Shown piece by piece: positions 40,782 through 59,541 of a stretch of DNA of 64,000 bases. A program made the position numbers and the translations under genes. The first letter of the stretch is position 1. Every line of letters starts with the position of its first letter. The stretch comes from Roseibium album (GTDB lineage: Bacteria; Pseudomonadota; Alphaproteobacteria; Rhizobiales; Stappiaceae): positions 62,001-126,000 of the forward strand of contig NZ_CXWE01000002.1 in the NCBI RefSeq assembly GCF_001404515.1, in the 5' to 3' direction. The notes below the pieces were generated by a model, which had not been told where the DNA came from, did not search any database, and was given only the letters and a program-made list of their open reading frames with translations.

Positions 40782-41705
40782 TCATTGAATTGAGGGCCTG
40801 TCTTTGGGTGACATTCGACGCAAGCGGTAGTGATCCAAAAAGGCGCGAAGCAATCCGAAATCCTGCAGCGGTTTCGGGAAGTAGAGATGAAAACCCGGTC
40901 TGCAAGGTGTCATACCGGGCAGGATCTCGACGAGCCTTCCGGCATCAAGGTCCTCGGCAACGCCGCGGCGCAATGACCACCCGATGCCGAAGCCACGCAA
41001 GGCAGCGTCGACCACCGTCCTCAAATCGTTGAAGACAAGGTTGCCGGAAACATCGATCGACGTCATCCCTTCTGGTGTTTCGAGCCGCCACGCGGCGATT
41101 CTTCCTGTACTCATACCCCTGTGACGAATACAGGCATGAGACAGAAGATCCATCGGTGTGTCGGGTCTGCCATGCCGCTTGAGATAATCCGGTGAAGCAA
41201 CCAATACTGCCTGCTCGTCTTCGGACAGACGGACGGCAATCATGTTGTCCTGGAGATGGTCACCCAGCCGTATGCCTGCATGGTATCCGCGAGCAACGAT
41301 ATCTGTCAGTGCTTCTTCTATCGTCAGATCGAGTTCGATACCCGGATGCAGGTTCTGGAAGGCCTGCAGCTCCGGCGCAACGACGGTCTGCCACGCCCGG
41401 AAAGGCAGCGTAACCTTCAACCGTCCGCTTCCCGCGTATTTCGCATTGCGTGCGGTTTCAAGCGCTTCACTGACTGCCTCAAGCAAGTGCCCGCTGCTGT
41501 CGAGAAGACGTTGCCCGGCATCGGTCAACGCCAGGGAACGCGTGGTCCGCACGAACAACCTGGTTCCGAGACGCTCTTCGAACGTCTTGAGTTGGTGAGA
41601 AACAGCTGGCGGATTGATCCCCAGGGCGCGGGCTGCAGCGCGCAACGACCCGTGCCTGGCAATCATGACAAATGTCTGCAATGCCGCCAGATCCGATCGA
41701 TCCAT
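40782..41705 (-). CDS. LysR-family transcriptional regulator
   Basis: 307 aa from the ATG at 41705, supported by AGGAAA seven bases upstream. LQTFVMIARHGSLRAAARAL and AVSHQLKTFEERLG form the LysR winged helix. The rest is the periplasmic-binding-like effector domain, with LPFRAWQTVVAPEL and GYHAGIRLGD. It resembles the AaeR/DsdC-independent group often divergent from transporters. It diverges from an EamA exporter gene 101 bases away and probably regulates it. Confidence 0.93.
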   Translation of the reverse strand: MDRSDLAALQTFVMIARHGSLRAAARALGINPPAVSHQLKTFEERLGTRLFVRTTRSLALTDAGQRLLDSSGHLLEAVSEALETARNAKYAGSGRLKVTLPFRAWQTVVAPELQAFQNLHPGIELDLTIEEALTDIVARGYHAGIRLGDHLQDNMIAVRLSEDEQAVLVASPDYLKRHGRPDTPMDLLSHACIRHRGMSTGRIAAWRLETPEGMTSIDVSGNLVFNDLRTVVDAALRGFGIGWSLRRGVAEDLDAGRLVEILPGMTPCRPGFHLYFPKPLQDFGLLRAFLDHYRLRRMSPKDRPSIQ

Positions 41706-41806
41706 TATTCGATTTCCTGTAACATTCAATTATTATTAGCACGCCTATTCGAAACAATCTCGCATTGTCAAACTCTGGTTCGCACCCGGGCACAGGGGAG
41801 AACACC

Positions 41807-43621: not shown

Positions 43622-44493
43622 TTAAATCCCTTTCTCACAAATGACAGGACCGACGCCATGTCGCGGGCGTCATACCCGGCTTCGCAGGCAGCGGTCAGCA
43701 TGGCCTCGTTCAGATCCGCCTGCGGCAGGGTGATACCGAGCGAACGGGCAAGGTCCAGCGCCAGACCCACATCCTTGCGCGCCAGGGCGACAGTGAAACT
43801 GACATCATGTGCTTCCTCATCAAGATAAAGCCCCTTGCGGTAGGAAATGAATGGGGCAGCGGCTGCCGAGTTCTCAATGACTTCATAGGCCGTTTCCGTG
43901 GCAATTCCGGCGTCTGACACAAGCGTCAAGGCTTCTGCTAGACTGTGGTTGAGCCCATGAAGCAGCATGTTGACGCCAAGTTTCATGGCTGCCCCCCGGC
44001 CAGGTCCGCCAAGCCAGATTGTACGCTTGCCGAGAGCCTCAAAGGGCGCATCAAGCAGAGGGACACTCTTGTCTTCCGCACCTGCCATGATCAGAAGCTG
44101 CGCGTCCTGGGCAGCCTTGGTGGCACCTGAGACGGGGGCATCGACAAAACTCAGGCCCGCGTCTGCCATTGCCTCGTGGATCCTCGCCGCGCTTTGAACG
44201 GATATCGTTCCCATCTCTGCAAAAACGGATGCGCCACCCGGTCCAGTGAGCAGGCCGTCGGATCCGAAATAGACAGCCTCGACCGCAGCATCATCGGCCA
44301 GCATCGTGATGACGACATCCGACCTGGCTCTGAGTTCTGACGGAGACGGCGCACTCTCAGCATTGTGATCTCGTGCAAAGGCCTCGGCTTTTTCACCGGT
44401 CCGGTTCCAGACAGTCACCGTGTGACCCGCGGTCACCAGATTGGCGGCCATGCGCACGCCCATCCGGCCAAGCCCGGCAAACCCTACCCGCAT
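43618..44493 (-). CDS. Beta-hydroxyacid dehydrogenase (3-hydroxyisobutyrate dehydrogenase-like)
   Basis: 291 aa from the ATG at 44493, which shares one base with the ATPase stop (TGATG). GFAGLGRMGVRMAANL is the NAD-binding loop, PVSGATKAAQDAQL the substrate-binding segment, and AAMKLGVNMLLHGLN holds the catalytic Lys. The family includes tartronate-semialdehyde reductase and 3-hydroxyisobutyrate dehydrogenase. In this operon a sugar- or polyol-derived hydroxyacid is the likely substrate. Confidence 0.92.
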   Translation of the reverse strand: MRVGFAGLGRMGVRMAANLVTAGHTVTVWNRTGEKAEAFARDHNAESAPSPSELRARSDVVITMLADDAAVEAVYFGSDGLLTGPGGASVFAEMGTISVQSAARIHEAMADAGLSFVDAPVSGATKAAQDAQLLIMAGAEDKSVPLLDAPFEALGKRTIWLGGPGRGAAMKLGVNMLLHGLNHSLAEALTLVSDAGIATETAYEVIENSAAAAPFISYRKGLYLDEEAHDVSFTVALARKDVGLALDLARSLGITLPQADLNEAMLTAACEAGYDARDMASVLSFVRKGFK

Positions 44494-46004
44494 CACGCCA
44501 CTTTCTCCGGAATGATTCCGGAGATCGCCTGAATGAGATTGTCTTCTGTCACTTCATCGGAGGTGAATGTGCGAATGATCTCGCCGTTGAACATTGCGAT
44601 GATCCGGTCACTGACATGTAGTACTTCCGGCATTTCCGAACTGATGACGATGACCGCGTAGCCCTGGCTCGCCAGTTCCCGGATCAGATTGTGGATCTCG
44701 GACTTGCTGCCGACATCGATCCCGCGGGTGGGTTCATCGACGATCAGGATGTTCGGGTGCATGGAGAGCCACTTGCCGATGACAATCTTCTGCTGATTGC
44801 CGCCCGACAGGTTGCCGACAAGCTGTTTCCAACCCGGTGTGCGGATATCGAGCCGATCGCGATATTGGTCGAAAATGGCAATTTCCGCCCCTTCGGCCAC
44901 AAACGGCCCGGCTTTCAGGTCGTTGACCTGGGGCAGGGTCATGTTGTCCCGGCAGTTCATGCCGAGAACAAGCCCCTGTCCCTTGCGGTCCTCGGGAACC
45001 AGCGAAATGCCTTTTTCAATCGCGTCTGCCGGCGAATGGATCGTGGTTTCCTGGCCATCCAGAAGAATTTGCCCTGCTGTCGGGTCGCGAAGACCGAAAA
45101 GCGTCTCGGCAATTTCCGTGCGGCCTGCCCCGACCAATCCGTAGAACCCGACGACTTCGCCCCGACAAACGCTGAAACTGACATTGTGGAACAGCTTGCC
45201 GCATTCAAGACCACGAACCTCCAGCGCAACGTCACCCAATTCGTGGTGGCTGACATTTCGAGACAGATCGAGCTTTCGTCCGATCATCAGCTGGGTCACT
45301 TCCTCTTCGTCCGTTTCCGGCGTTTCGAGCGTTCCGCGATACTGACCATCTCTCAAGACACTTATCCGGTCGGTGATCCTGAAGATTTCCTCCATGCGGT
45401 GAGAAATGTAGATGATGCCGACACCATGCGTTTTCAGATCGCCTATGACGTCGAAAAGCACGACCTTTTCCGCATCGGTCAGTGAAGCGGTCGGCTCATC
45501 GAAAATCACGGCTTTCGCCTCGACGGTCAGAGCCCTGGCAATCTCGACCATCTGCTGATTTGCGATGGACAGGTCACCGACCTTGGTTTTTGCGTCGAAA
45601 CCGACCTTGAGCCTGCCGAGAATCTCGTTGGTTTCGGAATAGAGTTTTTGCCAATCGACACGGCCGAAGCTCTTTTTCGGCAATTCACCAAGATAGATGT
45701 TCTCGGCAACGCTGAGTTCTTCGGCAAGGCTCAGTTCCTGGTGGATGAACATGATGCCCTTGCTTTTTGCCTGCAGTGGCGACGTCATCACAACCGGCTG
45801 CTCGTTGACAACGATCCTGCCTTCATCCGGCTGGTAGATACCGCCGAGAACCTTCATCAGCGTCGATTTTCCGGCACCATTCTCACCCATCAGGGCATGG
45901 ACTTCCCCGGGCATGACGTCAAAGGACACATTGTCGAGCGCGCGCACGCCGGGAAATGTCTTGACGATCCCTTCAAGGCGCAGGGCCGGTGTTTGACTGC
46001 TCAT
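44493..46004 (-). CDS. Sugar ABC transporter duplicated ATP-binding protein (RbsA type)
   Basis: 503 aa with two ATPase halves. The first has Walker A GENGAGKST near residue 37 and signature LSIANQQM. The second has the degenerate Walker A region GLVGAGRTE near residue 290 and signature LSGGNQQK, with Walker B NILIVDEPTRGID. This tandem layout is specific to ribose/xylose/galactose-type importers. It is coupled to the permease gene by an ATGA overlap at 46001-46004. Confidence 0.95.
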   Translation of the reverse strand: MSSQTPALRLEGIVKTFPGVRALDNVSFDVMPGEVHALMGENGAGKSTLMKVLGGIYQPDEGRIVVNEQPVVMTSPLQAKSKGIMFIHQELSLAEELSVAENIYLGELPKKSFGRVDWQKLYSETNEILGRLKVGFDAKTKVGDLSIANQQMVEIARALTVEAKAVIFDEPTASLTDAEKVVLFDVIGDLKTHGVGIIYISHRMEEIFRITDRISVLRDGQYRGTLETPETDEEEVTQLMIGRKLDLSRNVSHHELGDVALEVRGLECGKLFHNVSFSVCRGEVVGFYGLVGAGRTEIAETLFGLRDPTAGQILLDGQETTIHSPADAIEKGISLVPEDRKGQGLVLGMNCRDNMTLPQVNDLKAGPFVAEGAEIAIFDQYRDRLDIRTPGWKQLVGNLSGGNQQKIVIGKWLSMHPNILIVDEPTRGIDVGSKSEIHNLIRELASQGYAVIVISSEMPEVLHVSDRIIAMFNGEIIRTFTSDEVTEDNLIQAISGIIPEKVA

Positions 46005-47002
46005 ATCCTCAGTGCCTCCCTGCCCTTCAGATTTAGCTGGCGATCGAGAAACAGGACCGCGATCAGGATCAGGCCGATCACAAGATTGACCGTTTCCGTA
46101 TCTGCACCGATGTGCCCCAACCCCTTGCGCAGGAGCTGGATTGCCAGCACCCCTCCAAGCGTCGACAGGACCGAGCCAGCGCCACCGGTCAGTTTCGTTC
46201 CTCCCAGGACCACCGCCGTAATGACCCAGAGTTCGTACAGCTCACCGTCATTCGGGTTCACCGACCCGGATTCGGAATAAAACACCACGGCGGAAAGAGA
46301 CGCGAGAAAGCCGATGATCATGAAGTTGATCATCATGTGCGGTCCGACCCGAATGCCGGCATTGATGGCCGCCGTCCTGTTGTCACCGATCGCATAGGCA
46401 TTGCGGCCATGCACCGTCCGGTTCATGACGAACCAGATAACGGCAGTCACAACGAGCAGAAACCAGGTCGCCGTGTGAAGGCCCATGAACTGGGCTTCCG
46501 CGAAGTCGACCAGGGTCCAGTTGAGGTGGGAAGTCGGCTGCTCGCCGTTATACATGAAGACGAGCCCGCGATACCCGAGCATGGATCCGAGCGTGACGAT
46601 AAACGCGTCGACGCCGGTCTTCCAGACGATCAGGCCGTTCAAGGCACCCAGCAGAATGCCGGTCACAAGAGCAAGTGCCCATGCAATCGGAATGACGCCG
46701 TCGCCGAGGCCGGCAAACACCGGCCATGTCATGCTGTTGAGCAGCACGATGGCACTGAGGGCAAAGGTCGCGCCGACGCTGAGGTCGATGTTGCCGTTGA
46801 CCATGATGATCGTCATGCCGATGGCGATAATACCGATTGGTGCCGACTGTTTGAACAGCAGCAGCATGTTGTCCAGATCCATGAAGGCCTTGTTGCTGAG
46901 CGACAGGTATTCGCCGGCGATCGAGAAGAAGAGCAGCTCGACAACGATAAATCCCCAGATCGCGCCGCGTTTCAAAAAGGTACTGAGAGTTCCAGGTTCC
47001 AT
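46001..47002 (-). CDS. Sugar ABC transporter permease (RbsC type)
   Basis: 333 aa from the ATG at 47002, with AAGG just upstream; a GTG five codons earlier is possible. About ten membrane helices are visible. VNGNIDLSVGATFALSAIVL near residue 85 and GALNGLIVWKTGVDAFIVTLG near residue 125 are the conserved RbsC segments, and TAVVLGGTKLTGGAGS lies near the end. A second RbsC-type gene lies immediately upstream, so the channel is probably a heterodimer. Confidence 0.93.
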   Translation of the reverse strand: MEPGTLSTFLKRGAIWGFIVVELLFFSIAGEYLSLSNKAFMDLDNMLLLFKQSAPIGIIAIGMTIIMVNGNIDLSVGATFALSAIVLLNSMTWPVFAGLGDGVIPIAWALALVTGILLGALNGLIVWKTGVDAFIVTLGSMLGYRGLVFMYNGEQPTSHLNWTLVDFAEAQFMGLHTATWFLLVVTAVIWFVMNRTVHGRNAYAIGDNRTAAINAGIRVGPHMMINFMIIGFLASLSAVVFYSESGSVNPNDGELYELWVITAVVLGGTKLTGGAGSVLSTLGGVLAIQLLRKGLGHIGADTETVNLVIGLILIAVLFLDRQLNLKGREALRI

Positions 47003-47013
47003 GTATCCCTTCC

Positions 47014-48045
47014 TCACGCGATCGGTGACCAGAGTTTGCCGCGCTTGGCGGCAACATCGAGCCAGACGGCAAGTATGATGATGATCCAGGTCACGACGTA
47101 TTGGACGTAGAACTGAAGTCCGACGAGGAGAAGTCCGTTTTGGATGAAACCAAGGATCAGGACGCCAATGACGGTCTTGAAAATGGTGCCCGACCCGCCA
47201 AGCAGGGACGCACCGCCCAGAATCACCGCCGCCAGAACCTCCAGCTCAAGCCCCTGCCCGACCGTGTTCTGACTTCCAAGAGACCTGCTGGCCTGGATGA
47301 GGCCGGCCGTAGCCACGCAGAAGGCAGACATCAGGTAACAGGTAAACACGACCCGGGCTCTCTGGATGCCGGAGAAAGTTGCGGCCGTGCCGTTGCCGCC
47401 CACAGCATAGACCTTGCGCCCGAACGGTGTCTTGGCCAGCACGATGCCGAGCACCGAGGCGACAAGCGCAAAGAGCAGGATCGGAATTGGAATACCCAGT
47501 GCGTCGGACTGACCGAACATGCTGAACCAGGTCCCTTCCTTGTCGGCGATATCCATGTTCTTGCCGCCGGAATAGGTCAGCGTCAGCCCGTGAATGGCCG
47601 ACAACATGCCAAGCGTCACAATCAGCGAGTTGAGCTTGAGGTATCCGACAAGAAATCCGATGAAGGCACCGAGACACAGGACCATCGCATACATGGACGG
47701 GATGGCAAGTGCCGGGCCGATCTGGTCGTGAAGATCCAGAACCACGATCGTTGCGAAAGACATCATGGATCCGACTGAGAGATCGAGATTTCCGCTGATG
47801 ACGACAAACGTGACGCCCAGCGCCATCACGCCGAGGATCGCTGAAGAGCGCACGACGCCCATGATGTTGTCAGGGGCCAGAAAACGCTCATTGGCGATCG
47901 TGAAGCCGATGATGAACAGCGCGAATGCGACAAGTATGCCCTGCTTGGCCAGAAATCCGCCAATGCCTGACAGGTTGAATGGCCGCATCGTCTTCTCCTT
48001 CGATCCACTTTCGGGACCGGCTGACTTGCTTGAGACGTCAGACAA
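47014..48045 (-). CDS. Sugar ABC transporter permease (RbsC type)
   Basis: 343 aa from a TTG start at 48045 with GGGAGG six bases before it. An ATG at 47988 with its own GGAG would remove a polar N-terminal tail. VVISGNLDLSVGSMMSFATIV and AFIGFLVGYLKLNSLIVTLGM are the RbsC hallmarks, and AVILGGASLLGGSGT lies near the end. It is clearly a paralogue of the permease at 46001. Two permease genes with one ATPase and one receptor point to a heterodimeric channel. Confidence 0.93.
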   Translation of the reverse strand: MSDVSSKSAGPESGSKEKTMRPFNLSGIGGFLAKQGILVAFALFIIGFTIANERFLAPDNIMGVVRSSAILGVMALGVTFVVISGNLDLSVGSMMSFATIVVLDLHDQIGPALAIPSMYAMVLCLGAFIGFLVGYLKLNSLIVTLGMLSAIHGLTLTYSGGKNMDIADKEGTWFSMFGQSDALGIPIPILLFALVASVLGIVLAKTPFGRKVYAVGGNGTAATFSGIQRARVVFTCYLMSAFCVATAGLIQASRSLGSQNTVGQGLELEVLAAVILGGASLLGGSGTIFKTVIGVLILGFIQNGLLLVGLQFYVQYVVTWIIIILAVWLDVAAKRGKLWSPIA

Positions 48046-48070: not shown

Positions 48071-48868
48071 CTATAAAAGCGTCATACCGCCATCGATCAT
48101 CACAATCTGCCCGGTCATGTAATCGCTTTCGCGCGAAGCCAGAAAGGTCGTCGTCCCGGTGATATCCGCAGGGGTCGCGACCCTGCCGCGCAGGATGTCC
48201 GCGGAAAACTCTTCCATGGCCTGACCCGGACGCTCCGCGGCGCCGATCTGCATGAGATCCTGATCCACCTGTTCCCACATTTCCGTGGCAACGACACCCG
48301 GTGCAAACCCGGTGACCGTTATGTTGTGTTTCGCCAGATCCCTTGCGCCCGATTGCGTCAACGACACGACCGCCCACTTGGAGGCGCAGTAGGGCGCCAC
48401 GTTATCAAAGCCCTGGCGGCTGGCTATGGAAGCCGTGTTGATTATCTTGCCACCCCCGCCCTGCGCGATCATCTGCCGGGCGGCCTCCTGCGTCCCGATC
48501 AGGCACCCAAGGCCGTTCACGGTCATGATGGAGTTCCAGTTGTCCTCGGTCACATCGAGAAAATTCATCGGTTTGTTGACGCCGGCATTGTTGAATTTTA
48601 CGTCGAGTTTGCCGAATGCCGCCACTGCCTTTTCAATCATCGCACAGACCTGATCCCGCCGGGTCACATCGACCTGCGCCCAGGTGACGTTGGCGTGATT
48701 GACCCTGGCGCGGGCTTCATTGGTCGCGGCAACCGATTGAACGAGATCGCCGTTGATGTCGGCGAAACAGACGTCGGCACCTTCGCTCAGTAGTGCTTCA
48801 CCGATGGCCCGGCCAATACCTCTGGCCGCGCCGGTCACAATACAGGAACGCCCGGACACACGGCCCAT
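48071..48868 (-). CDS. Short-chain dehydrogenase/reductase
   Basis: 265 aa. The Rossmann loop is VTGAARGIGRAIG, NNAGVNKP is the structural Asn motif, and the catalytic Ser and YxxxK are in NTASIASRQGF and YCASKWAV. The end reads SDYMTGQIVMIDGGM. It resembles sorbitol, galactitol and acetoin/diacetyl-type SDRs that oxidise polyols or reduce ketones. It sits between the receptor and permease genes of the leftward operon. A related SDR is encoded in the rightward operon at 51955. Confidence 0.94.
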   Translation of the reverse strand: MGRVSGRSCIVTGAARGIGRAIGEALLSEGADVCFADINGDLVQSVAATNEARARVNHANVTWAQVDVTRRDQVCAMIEKAVAAFGKLDVKFNNAGVNKPMNFLDVTEDNWNSIMTVNGLGCLIGTQEAARQMIAQGGGGKIINTASIASRQGFDNVAPYCASKWAVVSLTQSGARDLAKHNITVTGFAPGVVATEMWEQVDQDLMQIGAAERPGQAMEEFSADILRGRVATPADITGTTTFLASRESDYMTGQIVMIDGGMTLL

Positions 48869-48931: not shown

Positions 48932-49894
48932 TCAGAATACCGGTTTGCTGTATTCAGCCATGTTGTCCTGTGTGATCTTCGGTGTGTCGAAGTAGTTCAG
49001 GAACGGGACTTCGGTACCGGAAAGAACATCGATTGCAGTTTTCAGGGCTGCTTCCGCGTCATCCACCGGAGACTGGTAAATGGAACCCCAGTATTCACCG
49101 CGCTCCATCGCTTCGTATCCGACGGAGAAGTTGGTCGCCCCCACAAAGATGATCCCTTCGCGCCCGGCAGCCTTGGCGGCGTTCAGGGCACCGACGCCCA
49201 TGTTGTCATCGCCTGAATAGACACCGTCGATGTCATCATACTTGACGAGGAAGGCTTCCATGACCTTCTGGGATTTTTCGCGGTTCCAGTCGCCGGGTTG
49301 CGTTTCCACCAGGGTGACGTTCGGACAAACTTCCGGGAGCCGATCTTCAAAGCCCTTGGCGCGCTCGATCGCTGTCGTATATCCCGGCTGACCGGAAATC
49401 TGGACGATTTTGGCTTCGTTCTCGATGCCCATGTCCTTGAACTTGTCACACATGATCTCGGCAGATCTCGACCCTTGGGTGATGTTGTCCGGCCCGGAGA
49501 AGGACTTGACGAAATCGAACCCCTGCTCGGCGATGTTCGAGTTTGTGACAATCACGGGAATGCCCGCCTTGTGCGCCTTGCGGACAGCGGGAATGACCGC
49601 CTCGCCATTTGTTGGCCAGATGATGATGGCGTCGACTTCCTGCTGGATCAGATCTTCCATCTGTGCAATCTGGCGCGCAACGTCGCCACCGGCGTCGAGA
49701 ACAACAGCCTCGACATTCGAATTGGCATCCGAAGCGGCAATAAAGGCCTTTTCATAGGTCGTCTGGTAGCTGTCCACACCGACATTGTTCTGCGTGATGC
49801 CGATTTTCATCGATTCAGCAGAAGCTGCGCCGGTCAGCGCCAGACCAGTGATGGCAGTCGTTGCCACAAGCAACGAACGAAACTTGCTCGTCAT
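48932..49894 (-). CDS. Sugar ABC transporter substrate-binding protein (RbsB type)
   Basis: 320 aa with a Sec signal peptide ending near GAASAES. The type-1 periplasmic fold is shown by MKIGITQNNVGVDSYQTTYE, then DLIQQEVDAIIIWPTNGEAV near residue 82 and DGVYSGDDNMGVGALNAAK near residue 225. Such receptors bind monosaccharides or polyols. It is the first gene of the leftward operon and shares the 49895-50187 control region with the fused regulator. Confidence 0.94.
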   Translation of the reverse strand: MTSKFRSLLVATTAITGLALTGAASAESMKIGITQNNVGVDSYQTTYEKAFIAASDANSNVEAVVLDAGGDVARQIAQMEDLIQQEVDAIIIWPTNGEAVIPAVRKAHKAGIPVIVTNSNIAEQGFDFVKSFSGPDNITQGSRSAEIMCDKFKDMGIENEAKIVQISGQPGYTTAIERAKGFEDRLPEVCPNVTLVETQPGDWNREKSQKVMEAFLVKYDDIDGVYSGDDNMGVGALNAAKAAGREGIIFVGATNFSVGYEAMERGEYWGSIYQSPVDDAEAALKTAIDVLSGTEVPFLNYFDTPKITQDNMAEYSKPVF

Positions 49895-50187
49895 TCCGAA
49901 ATCCTCCCTTGGGAACCCTTGAAGGTTCTGTCATGTCCGCGTCCCCTCCGGACGTGGAATGCGCACTCATCGCGAGCGTCGTTCTTAAACCTGCACAGCT
50001 CTTCGTGATGCTGCCCTATCGAAAATATCCAAAATGGATGTTTTAATATTCAATATGAACATTTTGCCGGTTTAGCCTCGATGCAGGCTCACCCACTCTT
50101 TGGAGGAAGGTCAATGTCGATCCAAAAAATATTCATTTTGAGGAAATGCAAAAGTGGTTTGTCCCGTCCGGAAACTGGAGACGCGAG
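49895..50187. promoter_or_regulatory. Divergent control region of the 42899-59541 locus
   Basis: This 293-bp gap separates the leftward importer operon from the rightward regulator and catabolic operon. It holds three copies of a 15-bp motif: 50030-50044 (CAAAATGGATGTTTT), 50051-50065 (CAATATGAACATTTT) and, on the minus strand, 50126-50140 (CAAAATGAATATTTT). The first two start 21 bases apart, so they lie on the same DNA face. Each copy approximates the palindrome CAAAAT-N4-ATTTTG. They are the obvious sites for the adjacent fused regulator. Confidence 0.7.
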
Positions 50188-51942
50188 ATGAACCATCATA
50201 AGGGAGAGCTGGTTCAGGAGACGTCTTTTCTCACGCCTCAGGCCAAAACGGAAATTCTCAAGGCGCTTACGTTTCTGGAGAGTTTCGAAGACGAGCTTGA
50301 CGGTCTGATCGAAATTTCGGCTCCCAACCCATATGTCAAAATGTCGGCATACCTGGTCAGGAGACATCTGGAGGCAAAGGTCGTGACGCCGACATCGCTG
50401 ATCGGCGCTTCGGGCGTTCCGTATGCAACCGCCACCCGGCGTCTGAGGAAGATGATCGACGACGGATTGGTCGAGCAACGGCCCCGAACCTCAAGCGGAC
50501 GTTCCTTTTCTCTTCATCCAAGTGCAGAGATGCTCGAAGCCTGGACCCAGTTCAGTGGCAGGATGCGCAGGTTGGCGGCACAGGCCTTCGGGTCGGACGC
50601 TCCCCGGGCCGACACGCAGGATTACTATTTCGCGGGCTCCTACCTGGAAGCCCAGACCATCCAGCCTCCGCAGGTTCTGCTCGAACCTCTCAAGCTCTCG
50701 GGCGGGCTGCGGGTTCTGGTTCACGGTGACCCGACCTTCATGGTCATGCACGGGCTCAAGCGGCAATTCGAACAGGTCGTCGGCTGCCCGATCCAGCAAC
50801 GGGCGTTTTCAATTGACCGGCTTCACGAAGAGGCAGTCAAGAACGCCCAGCGCACGACCAGCAGGTATGACCTGATCGCGCTTGACCTGCCCTGGGTCGG
50901 AGAATTCGCGGCGAAGGGCTACCTGCACCCGATCGATGCAGTTCTGGACGTCGAACGGCTGAGCCCAAGCGATTTTCACACAGCCGGTTGGATGGCAGCC
51001 CATTGGGACAAGCGGCCTTTCGGCGTTCCCTCGCAGACAACGCCTGAACTTCTGTTCTACCGCAAGGACTTGCTGGCAGAAGCCGGGCTTGAACCCCCGC
51101 ACACGACCGATGCCCTGCTGGAGGCAGCCGAGGAACTGCATGAACCGACCAAGGGACGCTACGGCATCGCCTGGAACGCGGCCCGCGGCACAGCGCTCGG
51201 CCACACATTCATGATGGCCTGTGCCGACTTTGGTCAGCCTGTACTTGATCTTGCAAAGCAGGCCGGCGGTTACGATGCATCCAGGCTCGCACAGGAAGAC
51301 TACCGACCAACGATCGATACCGAGCGCGGTCTGCTTGCCGCCGAGTATCTGATGGCGCTCCTGCGCTATTCTCCGCCGGATATCCTGTCCATGGCCTGGT
51401 ACGAACGTGTTCGGCCCTTTGCCAACGGCAAGGTTGCAATGGCATATGGCTATACCTTGCTCGCCCCTTATTTCGAGCAGAACCCTGCCTGCGCTGCCTT
51501 TGGAAAAGTCGGTTACCTGCCGCATCCGTCCGGATGCAAGGCACCCAATATCGCACCGGTCGGCGGATACCTGCTCTGCATTCCGGCCAACATCGCGCCA
51601 GACCGCCTTGAAGCCGCCACCGAGGCCCTGATCGTTTTCACATCGCCTGAAGCGCAAAAGCTCTACGTGGAAAACGGCAGCAGGACGAATCCGAGATACT
51701 CCGTGGGCGCCGATCCCGAAGTACGCAGGCTCTCACCGATCTTCGAAGCCGTGGATTCCATGTCCTGGCACGACGAGCTGCAATTCTGGCCGCGGCCGCC
51801 AATCCCGGAAATCAACGACATCATCCGCATCTGCGGAGAGGAATGCCACGACATGCTGCGCGGCGTTCAATCACCAAAAGCTGCGCTTCAAGCAGCCCAG
51901 AATCGTGCCGACCGGATCTTGAGGGAGGCAGGAAAACTCTAA
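50188..51942 (+). CDS. Winged-helix regulator fused to a family-1 solute-binding domain
   Basis: 584 aa from the ATG at 50188, with GGAG seven bases upstream; an earlier ATG at 50146 would add 14 residues. There is no signal peptide. Residues about 35-125 are a helical, winged-helix region (VKMSAYLVRRHLEAK, then PTSLIGASGVPYATATRRLR, then DDGLVEQRPR). From about residue 170 the chain is a family-1 solute-binding protein: LRVLVHGDPTF, DLIALDLPWVGEFAAKGYL, then FYRKDLLAEAGLEPPHT and a complete C-terminal lobe. It is best read as a cytosolic one-component sensor, comparable in plan to E. coli SgrR, which uses a different binding-protein family. The adjacent importer has an RbsB-type receptor, so the sensor domain was not taken from it. 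Confidence 0.85.
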   Translation: MNHHKGELVQETSFLTPQAKTEILKALTFLESFEDELDGLIEISAPNPYVKMSAYLVRRHLEAKVVTPTSLIGASGVPYATATRRLRKMIDDGLVEQRPRTSSGRSFSLHPSAEMLEAWTQFSGRMRRLAAQAFGSDAPRADTQDYYFAGSYLEAQTIQPPQVLLEPLKLSGGLRVLVHGDPTFMVMHGLKRQFEQVVGCPIQQRAFSIDRLHEEAVKNAQRTTSRYDLIALDLPWVGEFAAKGYLHPIDAVLDVERLSPSDFHTAGWMAAHWDKRPFGVPSQTTPELLFYRKDLLAEAGLEPPHTTDALLEAAEELHEPTKGRYGIAWNAARGTALGHTFMMACADFGQPVLDLAKQAGGYDASRLAQEDYRPTIDTERGLLAAEYLMALLRYSPPDILSMAWYERVRPFANGKVAMAYGYTLLAPYFEQNPACAAFGKVGYLPHPSGCKAPNIAPVGGYLLCIPANIAPDRLEAATEALIVFTSPEAQKLYVENGSRTNPRYSVGADPEVRRLSPIFEAVDSMSWHDELQFWPRPPIPEINDIIRICGEECHDMLRGVQSPKAALQAAQNRADRILREAGKL

Positions 51943-51954
51943 TGGGAGGAACTC

Positions 51955-52764
51955 ATGGACCCCAATCGTCTTAAGGGAAAGAACATTCTGATCACCGGAG
52001 CCGCACAAGGCATGGGTGCAGCGAATGCCGAATATTTTGCCGCACACGGCGCCAATGTTGCGCTCGGCGACATCAATGTCGACGGGGTCAACGAGGTTGC
52101 CGGCCGGATCAATGCCCGCGGCAACGGCAAGGCGATTTCCATGAAACTCGATGTGACCAAAAGACCCGACCACACAGCCGCGGTCAACGCCACGGCAGAT
52201 GAATTCGGTTCGATCAATATCATGCTCAACAATGCCGGCGTGAACAAACCCAAGATGTTCCTCGACATCGACGAGGACAACTGGGATCTGATCATGAACA
52301 TCAACGCCAAGGGCATGCTGTTCGGCATGCAGGAAGCGGCCAGGAAGATGATCGATCAGGGGCCGATGGATGATCATCCTTACAAGATCATCAATGTCGG
52401 CAGCATCGTGTCCCGCACCGCGTTTCTGGATGTAGTGCCGTACTCCTGCTCCAAATACTGCGCCCTGGCAATGATCATTGGCGGTGCAAAGGCTCTCTGG
52501 CAACACAAGATCACGGTCAATGGCTACGGGCCGGGCGTCGTGAAGACAGAGCTATGGGAGCAGCTCGACAAGGATCTCGTCGAGATCGGCATGTTCGAGA
52601 AGGAAGGCCAGTCGATGGATCACCTGGCAGAAACCATGATCCTGATGAAACAACTTTCCACGCCAGACGACGTCAAGGGAACCGCCGCGTTCCTGTGTTC
52701 CGACGAAAGCGACTACATGACCGGCCAGCTCATCATGATCGATGGCGGCATGATCATGCAATGA
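51955..52764 (+). CDS. Short-chain dehydrogenase/reductase
   Basis: 269 aa, starting 12 bases after the regulator stop with GGAGGAA before the ATG. The cofactor loop is ITGAAQGMGAANAEYF, NNAGVNKP matches the SDR at 48071 exactly, and Ser and YxxxK are in NVGSIVSRTAF and YSCSKYCA. The end SDYMTGQLIMIDGGM also echoes that paralogue. It probably oxidises a polyol or alpha-hydroxyketone. Two related SDRs in one locus suggest successive oxidations or two stereoisomers. Confidence 0.93.
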   Translation: MDPNRLKGKNILITGAAQGMGAANAEYFAAHGANVALGDINVDGVNEVAGRINARGNGKAISMKLDVTKRPDHTAAVNATADEFGSINIMLNNAGVNKPKMFLDIDEDNWDLIMNINAKGMLFGMQEAARKMIDQGPMDDHPYKIINVGSIVSRTAFLDVVPYSCSKYCALAMIIGGAKALWQHKITVNGYGPGVVKTELWEQLDKDLVEIGMFEKEGQSMDHLAETMILMKQLSTPDDVKGTAAFLCSDESDYMTGQLIMIDGGMIMQ

Positions 52765-52827: not shown

Positions 52828-54126
52828 ATGTCCCGCGCACTGACACCACACGTCCTGACCCCTCAGGACCTCGAACCAAACTGGAGATGGGAAGGCCGTT
52901 TGCCGGCCTGGGGCCATACGTCGGTGGATTTCGAACGCCGAGTAGACCATGACAGACTGCGCCGCTACAGGTTGTCGCGGACGCGCCAGGCCCTGAAGGC
53001 CTCCCCGGCGGGAACGCTTTTGTTGTTCGACGTGAACAACATCCGTTATGTGTCGTCAACCAAGATCGGCGAATGGGAACGGGACAAGATGTGCCGGTTC
53101 TGCCTGCTGACTGGTGATGATTCCCCCTATGTCTGGGATTTCGGTTCCGCCGCCTACCACCACAAGAAATTTTCCGACTGGCTCGAACCCGATCATTGTC
53201 TTGCGGGCGTCGTCGGAATGCGGGGTACGATTCCACCGGAATTCGGCCTGATGCGCAAATACGCAAAGCAGATTGCGGGGCTCATCAAGGATGCAGGCAT
53301 GGCCGATATGCCGGTGGGTGTCGACTACGCGGAGACGGCAATGTTTCACGCATTGCAGGAAGAAGGACTGAATGTCATTGACGGGCAGCAGATCATGCTG
53401 GCCGCGCGAGAGATCAAGAACTGGGATGAAATCCAGTTGCTCACCCAGGCTGCCTCCATGGTCGATGGCGTCTATCACATGATCTACGAGGCACTGAAAC
53501 CGGGCATTCGGGAAAACGACATCGTCGCCATGTCCAACAAGATGCTCTACGAGATGGGCTCGGACGATGTCGAGGCGATCAACGCAATCTCGGGCGAACG
53601 CTGTAATCCGCATCCACACAATTTCACCGACCGCTATTTCCGTCCGGGCGATCAGGCCTTCTTCGATATTCTTCAATCTTATCAGGGGTATCGGACCTGT
53701 TACTACCGAACGTTCAACATTGGCCGGGCAACACCGGCACAGCATGATGCCTATGTAAAAGCGCGCGAGTGGATCGATGCCTCCATCGCCATGATCAAGC
53801 CGGGTGTCTCCACGGACAAGGTGGCCGAGGTCTGGCCGAAAGCGGAAGAATTCGGCTTTCCGAACGAAGATGCTGCCTTCGGCCTGCAATTCGGTCACGG
53901 CCTGGGTTTGGCCTTGCACGAACGTCCGATCATCTCCCGGGCCATTTCCATTGATCATCCGATGGAAATCAAGACCGGCATGGTGTTCGCGCTGGAAACC
54001 TACTGCCCTGCCGCCGACGGCTATTCTGCCGCCCGTATCGAAGAAGAAGTGGTCGTGACCGACACGGGTGTCGAAGTCATCAGCCTGTTCCCGGCAGAGG
54101 AACTCCCGATCGCGAACCGGTACTGA
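52828..54126 (+). CDS. M24-fold (creatinase/Xaa-Pro peptidase-like) protein with altered metal site
   Basis: 432 aa. The C-terminal pita-bread domain runs from about residue 195. The first metal Asp is Asp280 in FFDILQSY, but the second Asp, eleven residues on, is Cys291 (GYRTCYYRTF). His357 in FGHGLGLALHE, Glu390 in ALETYCP and Glu405 in RIEEEVV are kept. An N-terminal creatinase-like domain precedes it. The altered ligand argues against an ordinary dinuclear metallopeptidase. A different metal, or a non-peptidase hydrolase or lyase as in creatinase and DddP, is plausible. It sits between an SDR and dehydrogenase-complex genes, so it may process the imported compound. Confidence 0.85.
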   Translation: MSRALTPHVLTPQDLEPNWRWEGRLPAWGHTSVDFERRVDHDRLRRYRLSRTRQALKASPAGTLLLFDVNNIRYVSSTKIGEWERDKMCRFCLLTGDDSPYVWDFGSAAYHHKKFSDWLEPDHCLAGVVGMRGTIPPEFGLMRKYAKQIAGLIKDAGMADMPVGVDYAETAMFHALQEEGLNVIDGQQIMLAAREIKNWDEIQLLTQAASMVDGVYHMIYEALKPGIRENDIVAMSNKMLYEMGSDDVEAINAISGERCNPHPHNFTDRYFRPGDQAFFDILQSYQGYRTCYYRTFNIGRATPAQHDAYVKAREWIDASIAMIKPGVSTDKVAEVWPKAEEFGFPNEDAAFGLQFGHGLGLALHERPIISRAISIDHPMEIKTGMVFALETYCPAADGYSAARIEEEVVVTDTGVEVISLFPAEELPIANRY

Positions 54127-54181: not shown

Positions 54182-55204
54182 ATGAGTGCTGCCAAGAACA
54201 GGCACAACACGGAAGATTACCTGCAGATGTACAGGCAAATGGTTCGTATCCGCGCCTTTGAAGACAATGCGAACCAGTTGTATCTCTCCGCCAGGATGCC
54301 CGGTCTGACCCATATGTATTCCGGGCAGGAAGCGGTGGCCGTCGGCATTTGCGAAGCCTTGACCGATGAGGATCGCATCACATCGACACACCGCGGGCAC
54401 GGTCATTGCGTTGCCAAGGGCGCAGACCTCAAGACGATGTTCTGCGAATTGCTGGGCAAGGCTGAAGGCTACTGCCGCGGCAAGGGCGGATCGATGCACA
54501 TTGCAGACCAGTCCCATGGAAATCTCGGCGCCAACGCCATCGTGGGCGGATCCATGGGCATTGCCACGGGCGCTGCGCTTTCGGCCAAACGTTTGGGCAG
54601 GGAGTTTGTGACGGTCTGCTTCTTCGGGGACGGCGCCACTGCCCAGGGTCTCTGGTATGAAGTGATGAACATGGCTGCACTCTGGCGGCTTCCGGTCATT
54701 TATGCGTGTGAAAACAATGGCTACAGCGAATACACCCGAACCGAGGAAATCGCGGCGGGTTCGCTGATCGCGCGTGCGCAGGCATTCGGCGTCGAAGCCT
54801 TTCAGGTCGACGGACAGGACGTGCTTGCGGTGAACGAGCTGACACAACAGCTCGTCGGTCGTTGCCGAAAGGGAGAAGGCCCGTTCTTCATCGAGCTGGA
54901 CACCTACCGCTATCACGGTCACCACGTTGGAGACATCAATCGCGACTACTACCGCTCCAGGGACGAGGAAGCCGAATGGAAGAAGCTCCGCGATCCGATC
55001 ACGAATTTCGGCAAATGGCTGATCGACCAGAAGATCATGTCCGCAGACGAGTTGGTGGCGATCGACGAAGAAATAAGCGCTGACGCACAGGCAGCGGTCC
55101 AATACGCGCTGGACGCACCTTATCCCGACGTCAACGAGGTCGACATGCATGTCTTTTCCGGTGTCGACCACGCACTGGAATATACAGGAGGAGCGCACCG
55201 ATGA
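54182..55204 (+). CDS. 2-oxoacid/acetoin dehydrogenase E1 subunit alpha
   Basis: 340 aa from the ATG at 54182. The thiamine-diphosphate motif runs from GDGATAQGLWYEVMNMAALW to ENNGYSEYTR, near residues 165-195. GLTHMYSGQEAVAVG and STHRGHGHCVAKGAD are the other family hallmarks, the latter with the conserved active-site histidines. The small size, like AcoA and PdhA, fits the heterotetrameric E1 type. It decarboxylates a 2-oxoacid or cleaves acetoin and passes the acyl group to lipoamide. It overlaps the beta-subunit gene by four bases. Confidence 0.94.
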   Translation: MSAAKNRHNTEDYLQMYRQMVRIRAFEDNANQLYLSARMPGLTHMYSGQEAVAVGICEALTDEDRITSTHRGHGHCVAKGADLKTMFCELLGKAEGYCRGKGGSMHIADQSHGNLGANAIVGGSMGIATGAALSAKRLGREFVTVCFFGDGATAQGLWYEVMNMAALWRLPVIYACENNGYSEYTRTEEIAAGSLIARAQAFGVEAFQVDGQDVLAVNELTQQLVGRCRKGEGPFFIELDTYRYHGHHVGDINRDYYRSRDEEAEWKKLRDPITNFGKWLIDQKIMSADELVAIDEEISADAQAAVQYALDAPYPDVNEVDMHVFSGVDHALEYTGGAHR

Positions 55205-56199
55205 CCCGCGAAATCACTCTCTCCAAAGCGGTCAACGAGGCGATCGCTGAAGAAATGCGTCGCGACGCATCTGTCATCCTGCTTGGCGAAGATGTTGCCG
55301 AAGCCGGAACGCCATTCAAGGTCCTTTCGGGACTGGTGGAGGAATTCGGGACCGACAGGGTCATCGACACGCCGATATCAGAGCCGGGTTTCATGGGCAT
55401 TGCTGTCGGAGCCGCCATGACGGGCTTGCGGCCGGTGGTCGATCTCATGTTCGGAGATTTTTTGTATCTGGTCATGGATCAACTCTGCAATCAGGCGGCA
55501 AAGACCCACTACATGTCAGGTGGCAAGCTGACGGTTCCCCTTGTTCTCAGGACGAATATGGGTGCGACACGCCGCTCCGCAGCTCAGCACAGCCAGTCCC
55601 TGCAGGCTCTAGTCGCGCACATTCCCGGACTGAAAGTCGCCATGCCGTCGTCGGCCTATGAGGCCAAGGGCCTCCTGAAAACGGCCATTCGGGACGACAA
55701 TCCGGTCGTGATCTTCGAAGACAAGCTCATGTACCAGGACAAGGCGCCCGTCCCGGAAGAAGAATACCTTGTCCCTTTCGGAAAGGCGCATATCAAACGC
55801 GAAGGTCGTGATGTGACGCTGGTCGCAACGTCCTCAATGGTGCAGGTTGCGGAAGAAGCTGCCGAAGCGCTGGCCGGGGACGGGATCAGCGCCGAGGTCA
55901 TAGATCCTCGGACGATCGTTCCACTTGATGAACAAACGATCCTGAATTCGGTCCGAAAGACCTCCCGCGCCATCGTGATCGATGAGGGTCATCAAAGTTA
56001 CGGTGTGACGGCGGAAATCGCTGCACGGATCGGAGAAAAGGCTTTCTATCATCTGGACGCCCCGGTGATCCGGATGGGCGCAATGGATGTACCGGTTCCC
56101 TTCTCGCCTGCCCTTGAGGATCTGACGGTGCCCAACGCCGCCGGCGTTGCCGAGAACGCACGCAGGATCTGCCGCGGAGAGTTGATCCATGCCGCATGA
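55201..56199 (+). CDS. 2-oxoacid/acetoin dehydrogenase E1 subunit beta
   Basis: 332 aa, coupled to E1-alpha by ATGA. VILLGEDVAEAGTPFK near residue 25, RVIDTPISEPGFMGIAVGAA near residue 58 and the C-terminal RMGAMDVPVPFSPALE are typical of AcoB/PdhB subunits. It completes the active site at the subunit interface. The following lipoyl-protein gene starts 11 bases before its stop. No dihydrolipoamide dehydrogenase gene is seen in the window, so E3 must come from elsewhere. Confidence 0.95.
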   Translation: MTREITLSKAVNEAIAEEMRRDASVILLGEDVAEAGTPFKVLSGLVEEFGTDRVIDTPISEPGFMGIAVGAAMTGLRPVVDLMFGDFLYLVMDQLCNQAAKTHYMSGGKLTVPLVLRTNMGATRRSAAQHSQSLQALVAHIPGLKVAMPSSAYEAKGLLKTAIRDDNPVVIFEDKLMYQDKAPVPEEEYLVPFGKAHIKREGRDVTLVATSSMVQVAEEAAEALAGDGISAEVIDPRTIVPLDEQTILNSVRKTSRAIVIDEGHQSYGVTAEIAARIGEKAFYHLDAPVIRMGAMDVPVPFSPALEDLTVPNAAGVAENARRICRGELIHAA

Positions 56200-57196
56200 G
56201 GTCATCATGCCTGCCCTCGGCATGGCCCAGGACACCGGGCTCCTGGTCGGCTGGCTCAAGCAACCCGGTGAAGCGGTAAACGCCGATGATGTTCTCTTCG
56301 AGGTTGAAACCGACAAGAGCACCATGGAGGTCAATGCCGGTTTCGACGGTTTTATCGCCAAACTTCTGGCTGAAGCCGGCCAGGAAGTGCCCGTCGGCGA
56401 AACCATTGCCGTCATTAGCGCAGAACAACCCGACCTAGCGGCGGTAGAGGAAGAAAGTTCCGGGCCGATTGTTCCTGACAAGGCTGCCGGCAACACGCGC
56501 GTCGAGGAAGCACCGGGGGCTTCAGACGGTCTCAAATCCGCGAGGTTGCCGGAAAAGGCACCAATCGCCATTCCGAAAAGCGAGGGAAAAATCCTGGCTT
56601 CGCCCAAGGCGCGCCGGCTCGCCGGAGAAATGGATCTGGACCTCAATCGCCTTGTCGAGGCAGGCCATGTTCAACCCTTCCACGTGAAGGACCTGGAAAC
56701 GCTGAAAACGCTGCCGCCAACCGGAACCGCGGCATCGGGCCCCCACACAGTGCGGCGCCTCGTTGCCGAAACCGGGGACGACGACGCCTTCGCTGATTTT
56801 GCAGGTTGGGCGGCAACCACCGGGGCCTGTCAGGATCAGGGGGCTCTGCTTGCAGGATTTGCCGCGCTTAGTCTGGGACGCTTGCCGGCAAACGTTGCGG
56901 TCGATCGTGCTGGTGACCGGACGATCTATGCGGTTCCCTCGACCTGGCTGGGTCAGGTCGCCGCTGCGGAGAGTAGCAAGCCTTTCGATCTTCATGTGCG
57001 CGACTTGCGTTTCACCAGGATCAGCTCCGTAGACCTTGGCGCTGAGGATTGCCCGACAATTAGCATTTCACGCGCGGGACGCGGCCTGCGCCTGACACTT
57101 GAAATTGCGGGTCATCGTCTCACCGCAGAAGAGGCTGTGAACCTGCTTTCCAATTTCGCGGGTCGGATGGAGCAACCGCTCCGCCACCTGCTTTGA
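56189..57196 (+). CDS. Lipoyl-domain protein with E3-binding and vestigial E2-like C-terminus
   Basis: 335 aa. Residues 1-78 are a lipoyl domain with the modified Lys in EVETDKSTMEV near residue 45. A linker rich in Ala, Glu and Pro follows. A peripheral-subunit-binding domain begins at ILASPKARRLAGEMDLDL near residue 132. The remaining ~165 residues look like a shortened E2 catalytic fold. Its end (LTLEIAGHRLTAEEAVNLL) aligns with the DHRxxxG region but has GHR in place of DHR and lacks the usual core. I infer that it carries lipoate but does not transfer acyl groups; the separate E2 at 58651 would do so. Confidence 0.85.
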   Translation: MPHEVIMPALGMAQDTGLLVGWLKQPGEAVNADDVLFEVETDKSTMEVNAGFDGFIAKLLAEAGQEVPVGETIAVISAEQPDLAAVEEESSGPIVPDKAAGNTRVEEAPGASDGLKSARLPEKAPIAIPKSEGKILASPKARRLAGEMDLDLNRLVEAGHVQPFHVKDLETLKTLPPTGTAASGPHTVRRLVAETGDDDAFADFAGWAATTGACQDQGALLAGFAALSLGRLPANVAVDRAGDRTIYAVPSTWLGQVAAAESSKPFDLHVRDLRFTRISSVDLGAEDCPTISISRAGRGLRLTLEIAGHRLTAEEAVNLLSNFAGRMEQPLRHLL

Positions 57197-57211
57197 CCCG
57201 TGGGGTGCATC

Positions 57212-58642
57212 ATGGACTTTACCGACCTTTATATCGATGGCGCCTGGCGACAGGGAGCAAGGGGCGAGCGTTTCGACGTCATCAATCCGGCAACCGAAGG
57301 CGTGCTTGCGTCCGTTGCATCGGCGGACATCGAGGATGCAGACCTCGCCTTGTACGCAGCCGAGCAGGCCATGAGGGACTGGGCGGCCAGAACACCACGG
57401 CAGCGTTCTGAAGTCCTGCGCAAGGCCTGGGAGCTGATGACCGTGCGCCTGGACGACTTTGCGCGACTGATCACTCTTGAAAACGGCAAGGCACGTGCGG
57501 ATGCCATGGGCGAAGCGGCCTATGCAGCGGAGTTTTTCCGCTGGTTTGCCGAGGAAGCCGTCCGCGCAGATGGCCTGATCACGACTGCCCCGGCGTCCGG
57601 GGCACGCATCATCGTGCAGCACAAACCCGCCGGTCTGGCTGTTCTGGTAACACCTTGGAACTATCCGGCTGCCATGGGCACCCGGAAAATCGCACCTGCG
57701 CTCGCCGCCGGATGCGCAGTCATCATCAAACCGGCCTCGGAAACCCCGCTTACAATGCTTGCATTGATGCCGTTGCTGGAGGAGGCAGGCGTGCCTCCCG
57801 GGCTGGTCAATGTCCTGCCGTCAAAGCGCACGGGTGCGCTGGTCGATCACATGCTGCATGACCCGCGTGTGCGCGTCGTATCCTTCACCGGTTCGACGGC
57901 GGTTGGACGCAAGCTGCTTCATTCTGCGGCCGACCAGGTTCTCAAGCCGGCAATGGAACTCGGAGGAAACGCGCCGCTGATCGTCTTCGACGATGCCGAT
58001 CTTGACGTTGCCCTGGAAGGCGCAATGCTCGCCAAGATGCGCAATCTGGGAGAAGCCTGCACCGCGGCCAACCGCATCTATCTGCATGAGGCAATCGCGG
58101 AAGAATTCACCAGCCGGATGGCAGAAGCCATGGGCAAATTGAAAGTCGGTGACGGCACGGATACTTCCGTCGATGTCGGGCCACTCGTCAATGCTGAAAC
58201 ACGCGACAAGGTTGCAGATTTTGTCGCGGACGCCGTGGCAAAGGGTGCGCGCATCGAAGTCGGGGGCCAGGCTCCCGACGGCAAAGGCTTCTTCTATACG
58301 CCGACCGTGCTTTCCAATGTGCCCGAGACGGCCGAATGCGTTCACGACGAAATCTTCGGCCCTGTGGCCGCTCTCCAGACATTTACTGACGAAGACGATG
58401 TCATTCAGCGTGCAAACGACACGGAGTATGGTCTGGTGGCATATGTATTCACCGAGGACATGAAACGCGGACTCAAGGTTTGCGAACGCCTGGACTACGG
58501 TATGGTCGGCCTCAATCGAGGCCTGGTTTCGGACCCGGCTGCCCCGTTCGGCGGCACCAAGCAGTCCGGCCTCGGACGCGAAGGCGGGCATGAAGGCATG
58601 CTGGAATTCATGGAAACCCAGTACATTTCTGCTGGCTGGTAG
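57212..58642 (+). CDS. Aldehyde dehydrogenase (succinate-semialdehyde dehydrogenase-like)
   Basis: 476 aa from the ATG at 57212, with GGGG six bases before it. PWNYPAAMGTRKIAPALAAG has the active-site Asn, MELGGNAPLIVFDD the Glu, and GEACTAANR the catalytic Cys. The closing APFGGTKQSGLGREGGHEG and size are those of GabD-like enzymes. It separates the two E2-type genes, so it is integral to the pathway. It probably oxidises an aldehyde formed from the imported compound, or released by the M24 or E1 step. Confidence 0.94.
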   Translation: MDFTDLYIDGAWRQGARGERFDVINPATEGVLASVASADIEDADLALYAAEQAMRDWAARTPRQRSEVLRKAWELMTVRLDDFARLITLENGKARADAMGEAAYAAEFFRWFAEEAVRADGLITTAPASGARIIVQHKPAGLAVLVTPWNYPAAMGTRKIAPALAAGCAVIIKPASETPLTMLALMPLLEEAGVPPGLVNVLPSKRTGALVDHMLHDPRVRVVSFTGSTAVGRKLLHSAADQVLKPAMELGGNAPLIVFDDADLDVALEGAMLAKMRNLGEACTAANRIYLHEAIAEEFTSRMAEAMGKLKVGDGTDTSVDVGPLVNAETRDKVADFVADAVAKGARIEVGGQAPDGKGFFYTPTVLSNVPETAECVHDEIFGPVAALQTFTDEDDVIQRANDTEYGLVAYVFTEDMKRGLKVCERLDYGMVGLNRGLVSDPAAPFGGTKQSGLGREGGHEGMLEFMETQYISAGW

Positions 58643-58650
58643 GGGGCAAT

Positions 58651-59541
58651 ATGTCTGACATCATCGCCCCACCCTCCGTCAGGGCGCTCGCGCGCCAAAA
58701 GGGGATCGATATCGAAGCGCTGGCCAGGGACATCGGCCGAACGTCCATCGCACGCGAGGATCTGGAAGCAGATGGTGCAGCTCCGGCCGCGACGCAGTTT
58801 GCGGCCTCCGACAGGTCCTACTGGGACGTTGACCATTCTCAATATGGACCTGTGCGGCAAGAACCAATGAGCCGATTTGCCCAGGTAGCCGCTCGGAATA
58901 TGGCGGCAGCACAGGCGCTCATTCCGGCCGTGACCCATCACGACCGGGCTGATGTCTCCGTGATAGAGGAATTCCGGAAGGACCTGAAATCCGAAGCCAG
59001 GGATCGCGGGCTCAAGCTGACGGCACTTTCCTTTTACGCGAAGGCGCTTGCCAGGGCCTTGCGTGAATTTCCCTGGTTCAACGCATCCCTGAGCTCCGAC
59101 GGCAAGACCCTTTTTTTGAAGGAATATGTTCACATCGGAATTGCGGTCGATACGAAACATGGTCTCATGGTGCCGGTCCTGCGGGATGTTGACAGCAAGG
59201 GTCTCTGGCAGATCGCGCGCGAGATTACCGATCTTGCCGCAAGGTCTCAGGAGCGGAAGGTCCGTCCGGACGAAATGGGCGGAGCCTCAATGACAATCAC
59301 CAACCTGGGAGGCATCGGCGGCACCGCGTTCACTCCGATCGTCAATCCGCCGGAAGTCGCTATTCTTGGCATCACCCGAACCGAAATCGCCCCTGTCTGG
59401 GACGGTGAAGTCTTCCTGCCCGCACCAATGGTTCCGCTGGATCTCAGTTACGATCATCGCGTGATCAACGGAGCGGAAGCCGCGCGGTTCCTGACATACT
59501 ACGCTGGTCTTCTCAAGGACCCGAGACGCATGTTGGTCTGA
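58651..59541 (+). CDS. Stand-alone E2 acyltransferase without a lipoyl domain
   Basis: 296 aa. It opens with an E3/E1-binding domain (APPSVRALARQKGIDIEALA) and goes on to a full catalytic domain. ITNLGGIGGTAFTPIVNPPE near residue 215 and the active-site DLSYDHRVINGAEAARFL near residue 270 closely resemble the AceF-type pyruvate dehydrogenase E2 of gamma- and beta-proteobacteria. It has no lipoyl domain, so the lipoate must come from the protein at 56189. It closes the rightward operon. Confidence 0.92.
   Translation: MSDIIAPPSVRALARQKGIDIEALARDIGRTSIAREDLEADGAAPAATQFAASDRSYWDVDHSQYGPVRQEPMSRFAQVAARNMAAAQALIPAVTHHDRADVSVIEEFRKDLKSEARDRGLKLTALSFYAKALARALREFPWFNASLSSDGKTLFLKEYVHIGIAVDTKHGLMVPVLRDVDSKGLWQIAREITDLAARSQERKVRPDEMGGASMTITNLGGIGGTAFTPIVNPPEVAILGITRTEIAPVWDGEVFLPAPMVPLDLSYDHRVINGAEAARFLTYYAGLLKDPRRMLV

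Follow-up and report, generated by a model that had tools for sequence, protein, structure and literature searches.

A predicted cytosolic regulator joining a MarR-like winged helix to a leaderless family-1 solute-binding domain, and its candidate operator

The 64,000-nucleotide stretch of Roseibium album DNA considered here (contig NZ_CXWE01000002.1, positions 62,001 to 126,000; hereafter the window) carries, at positions 50188..51942 of the forward strand, a gene for a 584-amino acid protein termed REG, in which a predicted winged helix is followed by a family-1 solute-binding protein (SBP) domain that lacks an export signal. REG is probably a cytosolic one-component transcription regulator, a reading to which we assign a probability of roughly 0.7. 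It would use its SBP domain as a sensor and control its own gene together with two divergent operons, one for an importer headed by an RbsB-type receptor (rbsB) and one for catabolic enzymes beginning with an SDR dehydrogenase (SDR2) and a DddP-like M24 protein. In marine bacteria, the uptake and breakdown of one nutrient seem to be under its control. The two folds, the missing signal sequence, the gene order, the conserved operator and the link between operator and regulator were all established by computation, and support an earlier, sequence-only reading of REG as a one-component regulator built from a helix-turn-helix (HTH) and an SBP domain.

Domain architecture and predicted fold

The open reading frame of REG begins at 50146, and the start at 50188 gives the same length as is listed for several near relatives. 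Two REG matches flagged with internal stops were checked; the flag came from the ordinary terminal stop in G047 and from sequence ahead of the start in G383. The full family-1 binding fold proposed from the sequence is borne out, as Pfam assigns SBP_bac_1 at 90.2 bits against a cut-off of 26, along with SBP_bac_8 at 78.4 bits, and the AlphaFold2 model enters an SBP fold at about residue 173. The domain accordingly spans residues 173-584 (50704..51939, forward strand, as for all features of the gene).

The N-terminal third had been described as resembling a DNA-binding region; the winged helix is upheld by AlphaFold2 and by MarR-family chains in the PDB, but it occupies only residues 17-134 (50236..50589), about the first quarter of the protein. 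The model comprises helices at residues 17-40, 48-61, 68-74 and 79-91, strands at 95-99 and 107-111, and a closing helix at 113-134. A search of PDB sequences with a profile of the N-terminal domain gave no significant match, so that a comparison of folds was required; with Foldseek, the N-terminal piece alone retrieved mostly MarR-family chains, and the predicted model has a MarR-type winged-helix fold at moderate scores. In REG itself, residues 63-106 match the MarR, TrmB, MarR_2, IclR and HTH_24 models of Pfam, each under its own cut-off (MarR, 16.4 against 24.6 bits; MarR_2, 15.4 against 27). The profile searches proposed earlier succeeded for SBP_bac_1 and fell short for the winged helix of REG, though MarR_2 is matched in 36 of 44 family members, with a best E of 2.2e-6. 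The presumed recognition helix (residues 79-91; 50422..50460), whose role is assigned from the model, bears the motif (V/L)(P/S)Y(A/G)TxxR, which is conserved across relatives. The model and conservation together also define a wing at residues 95-111 (50470..50520; RPRTxSGxSFSLHPS). The two domains are joined by a linker of low model confidence (residues 135-172; 50590..50703), in which residues 137-158 fall under a pLDDT of 50.

That REG has no signal peptide was also confirmed, in a comparison confined to the source genome, where SBP_bac_1 has 42 matches and loci were returned for the 30 that were compared. Export signals were judged by eye and by hydropathy, taking for each protein the highest 11-residue value in the vicinity of a candidate start, rather than with a dedicated signal predictor. 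By these measures REG has none of the export signals typical of SBP_bac_1 proteins; its value of 1.31 is the lowest of the 30, against 1.50-2.71 for the other 29, all of which have ordinary or twin-arginine-like signal sequences by eye. Neither of the two outcomes that would have counted against the sequence-only reading was seen: a DNA-binding fold is predicted, and nothing points to export.

A conserved tandem palindrome between the divergent genes

The region 49895-50187, earlier proposed as the target of REG, contains a conserved tandem palindrome at 50027-50060. Its predicted operator halves are O1 (ATCCAAAATGGAT, 50027..50039) and O2 (ATTCAATATGAAC, 50048..50060), which lies 21 bp from O1. 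A weak candidate for a third site (ATTCATTTTGAGG, 50131..50143) agrees by eye at 8/10 constrained positions. Conservation was assessed in 23 related loci (L001-L023; 415,089 bp in total) with REG proteins 63-100% identical. Exact 21-bp pairs of the pattern RTYCR-N3-YGRAY occur in 18 of the 23 intergenic regions, one apiece, and the remaining five have a pair with 19/20 constrained positions. Across the whole 415,089 bp the single pattern is matched 113 times, while its 21-bp pairs total 18 and are all intergenic. Sites with at least 9/10 consensus bases number 27, against 0.42 in dinucleotide shuffles, and the pair is unique within the window, where 0.02 would be expected. The pair stands 122-155 bp from the rbsB start (some starts being extrapolated), a steadier distance than the 161-234 bp to the REG match. 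In 9/23 loci the REG match is preceded, at a distance of 45-75 bp, by an exact third site, which is imperfect in the window.

The palindromes extend to divergent relatives of REG, which were found at 51, 47, 40, 38 and 30-32% identity. The 21-bp pair is retained in L047, and in L048 and L052 it is spaced 20 bp and located between SDR2 and the RbsB/importer genes; L053 has no convincing pair. L054-L056 have perfect ATTCA-N3-TGAAT palindromes at promoters, single ones ahead of RbsB and ahead of SDR2 in L054 and three each in L055 and L056. Among 120 permutations, the half-site RTYCA ranks first both in L001-L023 and in L047, L048, L052 and L053, and third in L054-L056. Strict sites lie outside genes in 24/31 cases for L001-L023 and in 14/18 for seven divergent loci.

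As a control, nine loci were taken from ten genomes that have the M24 gene but not REG, with G695 excluded, and these had no strict site and no pair in 158,613 bp. By comparison, the loci L001-L023 contain 31 strict sites over 415,089 bp, at least one in 21/23 of them, and a further set of REG-bearing loci contains 27 over 219,561 bp, at least one in 12/12.

Elsewhere in the genome, a second exact copy of ATCCAWWWTGGAT (C2:340357) was rejected as an operator, being inside an RbsB-like gene and without a partner. With up to one mismatch this sequence occurs 18 times genome-wide, against three for a reversed control, and a partner site accompanies only one of four occurrences looked at. A scan of 49880-50260 for sigma-70 promoters and terminators found nothing, so activation and repression cannot be told apart from the geometry.

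Conservation, distribution and origin

The placement of REG at the divergence of importer and catabolic operons was confirmed, as in all 23 related loci REG and rbsB point away from each other and SDR2 comes next after REG. M24 follows in 19; the exceptions are L010, L018 and L021, which are on short contigs, and L013, which is truly without an adjacent M24. Within 61 genomes of the family, REG is present at full length in 16, an RbsB orthologue in 15, each of which also has REG, and M24 in 20 (16 with REG). Among 385 genomes of the class, eight have a full-length REG, a ninth match covering part of the SBP region only, and M24 is found in 14, eight of them with REG; a 299-genome sample of the phylum has REG in four. 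The family is sizeable, because residues 12-165 are matched by at least 288 database clusters.

Among more distant loci, L048 and L052 have another RbsABC-type importer (RbsB match 25-26%), and REG sits inside the operon, some 5 kb further downstream. The REG relatives of L054, L055 and L056 come from three 1.4-Mb genomes. REG, SDR2, M24 and E1 remain together while the importer is exchanged, which suggests that the signal read by REG is the substrate or an intermediate early in the pathway rather than the transporter.

In a phylogeny combining 11 SBP domains of REG proteins with 29 exported SBPs, the latter from the source genome alone, the REG domains fall in one clade (support 1.000) adjoining L064 and L070 (0.895); in this small sample the tree agrees with one fusion event. 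A wider proposal, to which we give about an even chance, is that REG represents a distinct transcription-factor class of single origin, in which a MarR-like head captured an exported family-1 ABC receptor once, the export signal was lost and the ligand came to be read in the cytosol. Such a regulator would remain linked to its operator and to the catabolic genes even as the adjacent importer is swapped for an unrelated one. It would govern an undescribed pathway centred on the DddP-like M24 protein and a dehydrogenase complex for acyloins or 2-oxoacids, including in the 1.4-Mb streamlined genomes.

Proposed mechanism and alternative explanations

Under the favoured mechanism, dimers of REG would bind the two palindromes between rbsB and REG through their MarR-like winged helices, on one face of the DNA and two helical turns (21 bp) apart, and binding there would control the divergent importer operon, the catabolic operon and REG itself. 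The sensor would be the family-1 domain, itself derived from an ABC receptor that was once exported, and its two lobes would close on the imported substrate or on the product of the first oxidation step. This closure may alter the spacing or orientation of the DNA-binding heads and hence transcription. We lean slightly towards a ligand that relieves repression.

Ligand binding by the SBP domain and the cytosolic location of that ligand are both inferred. The SBP fold is retained entire in the model, many residues are invariant over 44 members, conserved stretches persist at about 30% identity, and the closest proteins of solved structure are receptors for sugars or polyols. In one survey, SBP_bac_1 proteins are predicted sugar binders nearly throughout, and SBP Pfam domains are stated in general terms to act as sensors in transcriptional regulators (PMC9602780). 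Both SDRs of the locus resemble polyol or acetoin dehydrogenases, with scores under the cut-offs of those models. From the survey and this resemblance, a polyol, sugar or ketose ligand is only a guess, and the identity of the ligand cannot be transferred from the importer since its receptor belongs to a different family.

That difference, and the inferred nature of ligand binding, leave some room for an alternative in which REG binds the operators and its SBP domain has become a dimerisation or protein-contact module, for example with an importer subunit or a pathway enzyme. The completeness and conservation of the fold and its kinship with sugar and polyol receptors make this unlikely. Less likely still, the tandem palindromes could belong to another regulator, with REG acting elsewhere or as a co-regulator only. 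Other regulators do occur nearby, the nearest in the window being a LysR gene (40782-41729), and by eye L047 has a LacI-like gene close to its importer and L052 a GntR-like gene close to SDR2. However, when unmatched neighbours were clustered, nothing in the 14 largest clusters looked by eye like a recurrent regulator, and the palindromes of REG-bearing loci are absent from the nine loci that have this M24 gene but no REG. Most relatives of REG are named as ABC transporter substrate-binding proteins in databases, as would suit a conventional exported receptor bearing an unusual N-terminal extension, or a binding protein that stays in the cytosol and does not bind DNA. Such a protein is very improbable here, given a missing signal sequence that sets REG apart from 29/29 others, a predicted winged helix and an operator. 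If REG is instead the regulator favoured above, the listing of many members as transporter components makes the transporter counts of these genomes slightly wrong.

Relation to known systems

The precedent named in the sequence-only reading, SgrR with its family-5 domain, is right in kind, as the SgrR homologue DsvR is described as an N-terminal HTH with a C-terminal SBP_bac_5 domain (PMC13060122). REG shares with SgrR and DsvR this order of HTH and leaderless solute-binding domain and, presumably, the control of sugar-related genes, whereas it differs in its SBP_bac_1 domain, gene setting and operator. Pfam found no SBP_bac_5 in REG, but SBP_bac_1 and SBP_bac_8 instead, and no SgrR_N in a scan to E 10, in which HMMER filters may drop weak matches. 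The predicted architecture and operator appear compatible with a leaderless HTH-SBP regulator. REG is not a new category, because sensor SBPs in regulators and the SgrR/DsvR systems are already described (PMC9602780; PMC13060122).

REG resembles the MarR family (MexR, MepR and HpaR in the PDB) in its predicted winged helix with wing and flanking helices. MarR-family regulators recognise short palindromic sites, as REG would. They are proteins of about 140-150 amino acids that sense through the dimer interface, whereas REG would sense through a separate SBP domain and lies under the Pfam MarR cut-off. Arad_9887 (5iai), whose ligand is presumably ribitol, is by contrast an exported stand-alone family-1 ABC receptor with no DNA-binding domain. 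LacI/GalR proteins likewise join a receptor-derived sensor to a DNA-binding head, but pair a LacI-type HTH with a type-I periplasmic-binding fold, where REG pairs a winged helix with a type-II family-1 fold; Pfam found no LacI or Peripla_BP match in REG. Btr/YbbB of Bacillus subtilis also uses an SBP domain as a cytosolic sensor, with an AraC-type HTH and a siderophore-type SBP, unlike REG. GntR-headed HTH-SBP_bac_1 architectures appear to exist as well. No description of winged-helix SBP_bac_1 regulators was found in the literature searched, which did not systematically cover other HTH-SBP_bac_1 architectures. Leaderless SBP-based regulators are known chiefly from SgrR, and REG adds a second family, which looks independent and has an operator that can be read. 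Operator and SBP domain make both halves testable together, by DNA-binding or reporter assays and a ligand screen, and knowing the ligand would identify the substrate of a marine catabolic cluster that is conserved but as yet unexplained.

Gene neighbourhood and variant loci

On the reverse strand, the importer run comprises the receptor (48932..49894), of RbsB type as had been proposed (Peripla_BP_4), SDR1 (48071..48868), two RbsC-type permeases (47014..48045 and 46001..47017) and an RbsA-type ATPase (44493..46004), beyond which further genes continue the same divergent run. The BPD_transp_1-type partner importer typical for SBP_bac_1 is not beside REG, the neighbour having BPD_transp_2 permeases. 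On the forward strand, REG adjoins SDR2 (51955..52764), followed by M24 (52828..54126), 2-oxoacid dehydrogenase E1 alpha (54182..55204) and E1 beta (55201..56199), a lipoyl-bearing E2-like protein (56189..57196), an aldehyde dehydrogenase (57200..58642) and an E2 catalytic-domain protein (58651..59541). The E2 thus appears split around the aldehyde dehydrogenase gene, with a lipoyl domain lacking a catalytic match on one side and a catalytic domain lacking a lipoyl match on the other. A dimethylsulfoniopropionate lyase pathway was rejected, as the M24 protein scores 116.6 bits against the DddP cut-off of 600; aligned to 4s01, it lacks two aspartates that we take to be metal ligands.

Several loci depart from this arrangement. 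L016, from a metagenome-assembled genome of Methylocystaceae, has two tandem REG-like matches (63 and 65%) between RbsB and SDR2. A second REG in G461 (L053:8778-10490; 38% identical) is accompanied by neither SDR2 nor M24 but by a gene resembling GMC oxidoreductases and a further RbsABC-type importer, and may be a paralogue that serves another substrate. Import and control modules seem to be exchanged around the catabolic core. In L094-L097 the same M24 gene occurs without REG and, by eye, with a LacI-like gene nearby; it also has E1/E2 or aldehyde dehydrogenase neighbours in L094 and L097, and lies beside LIV-like ABC genes, again by eye, in L094 and L096.
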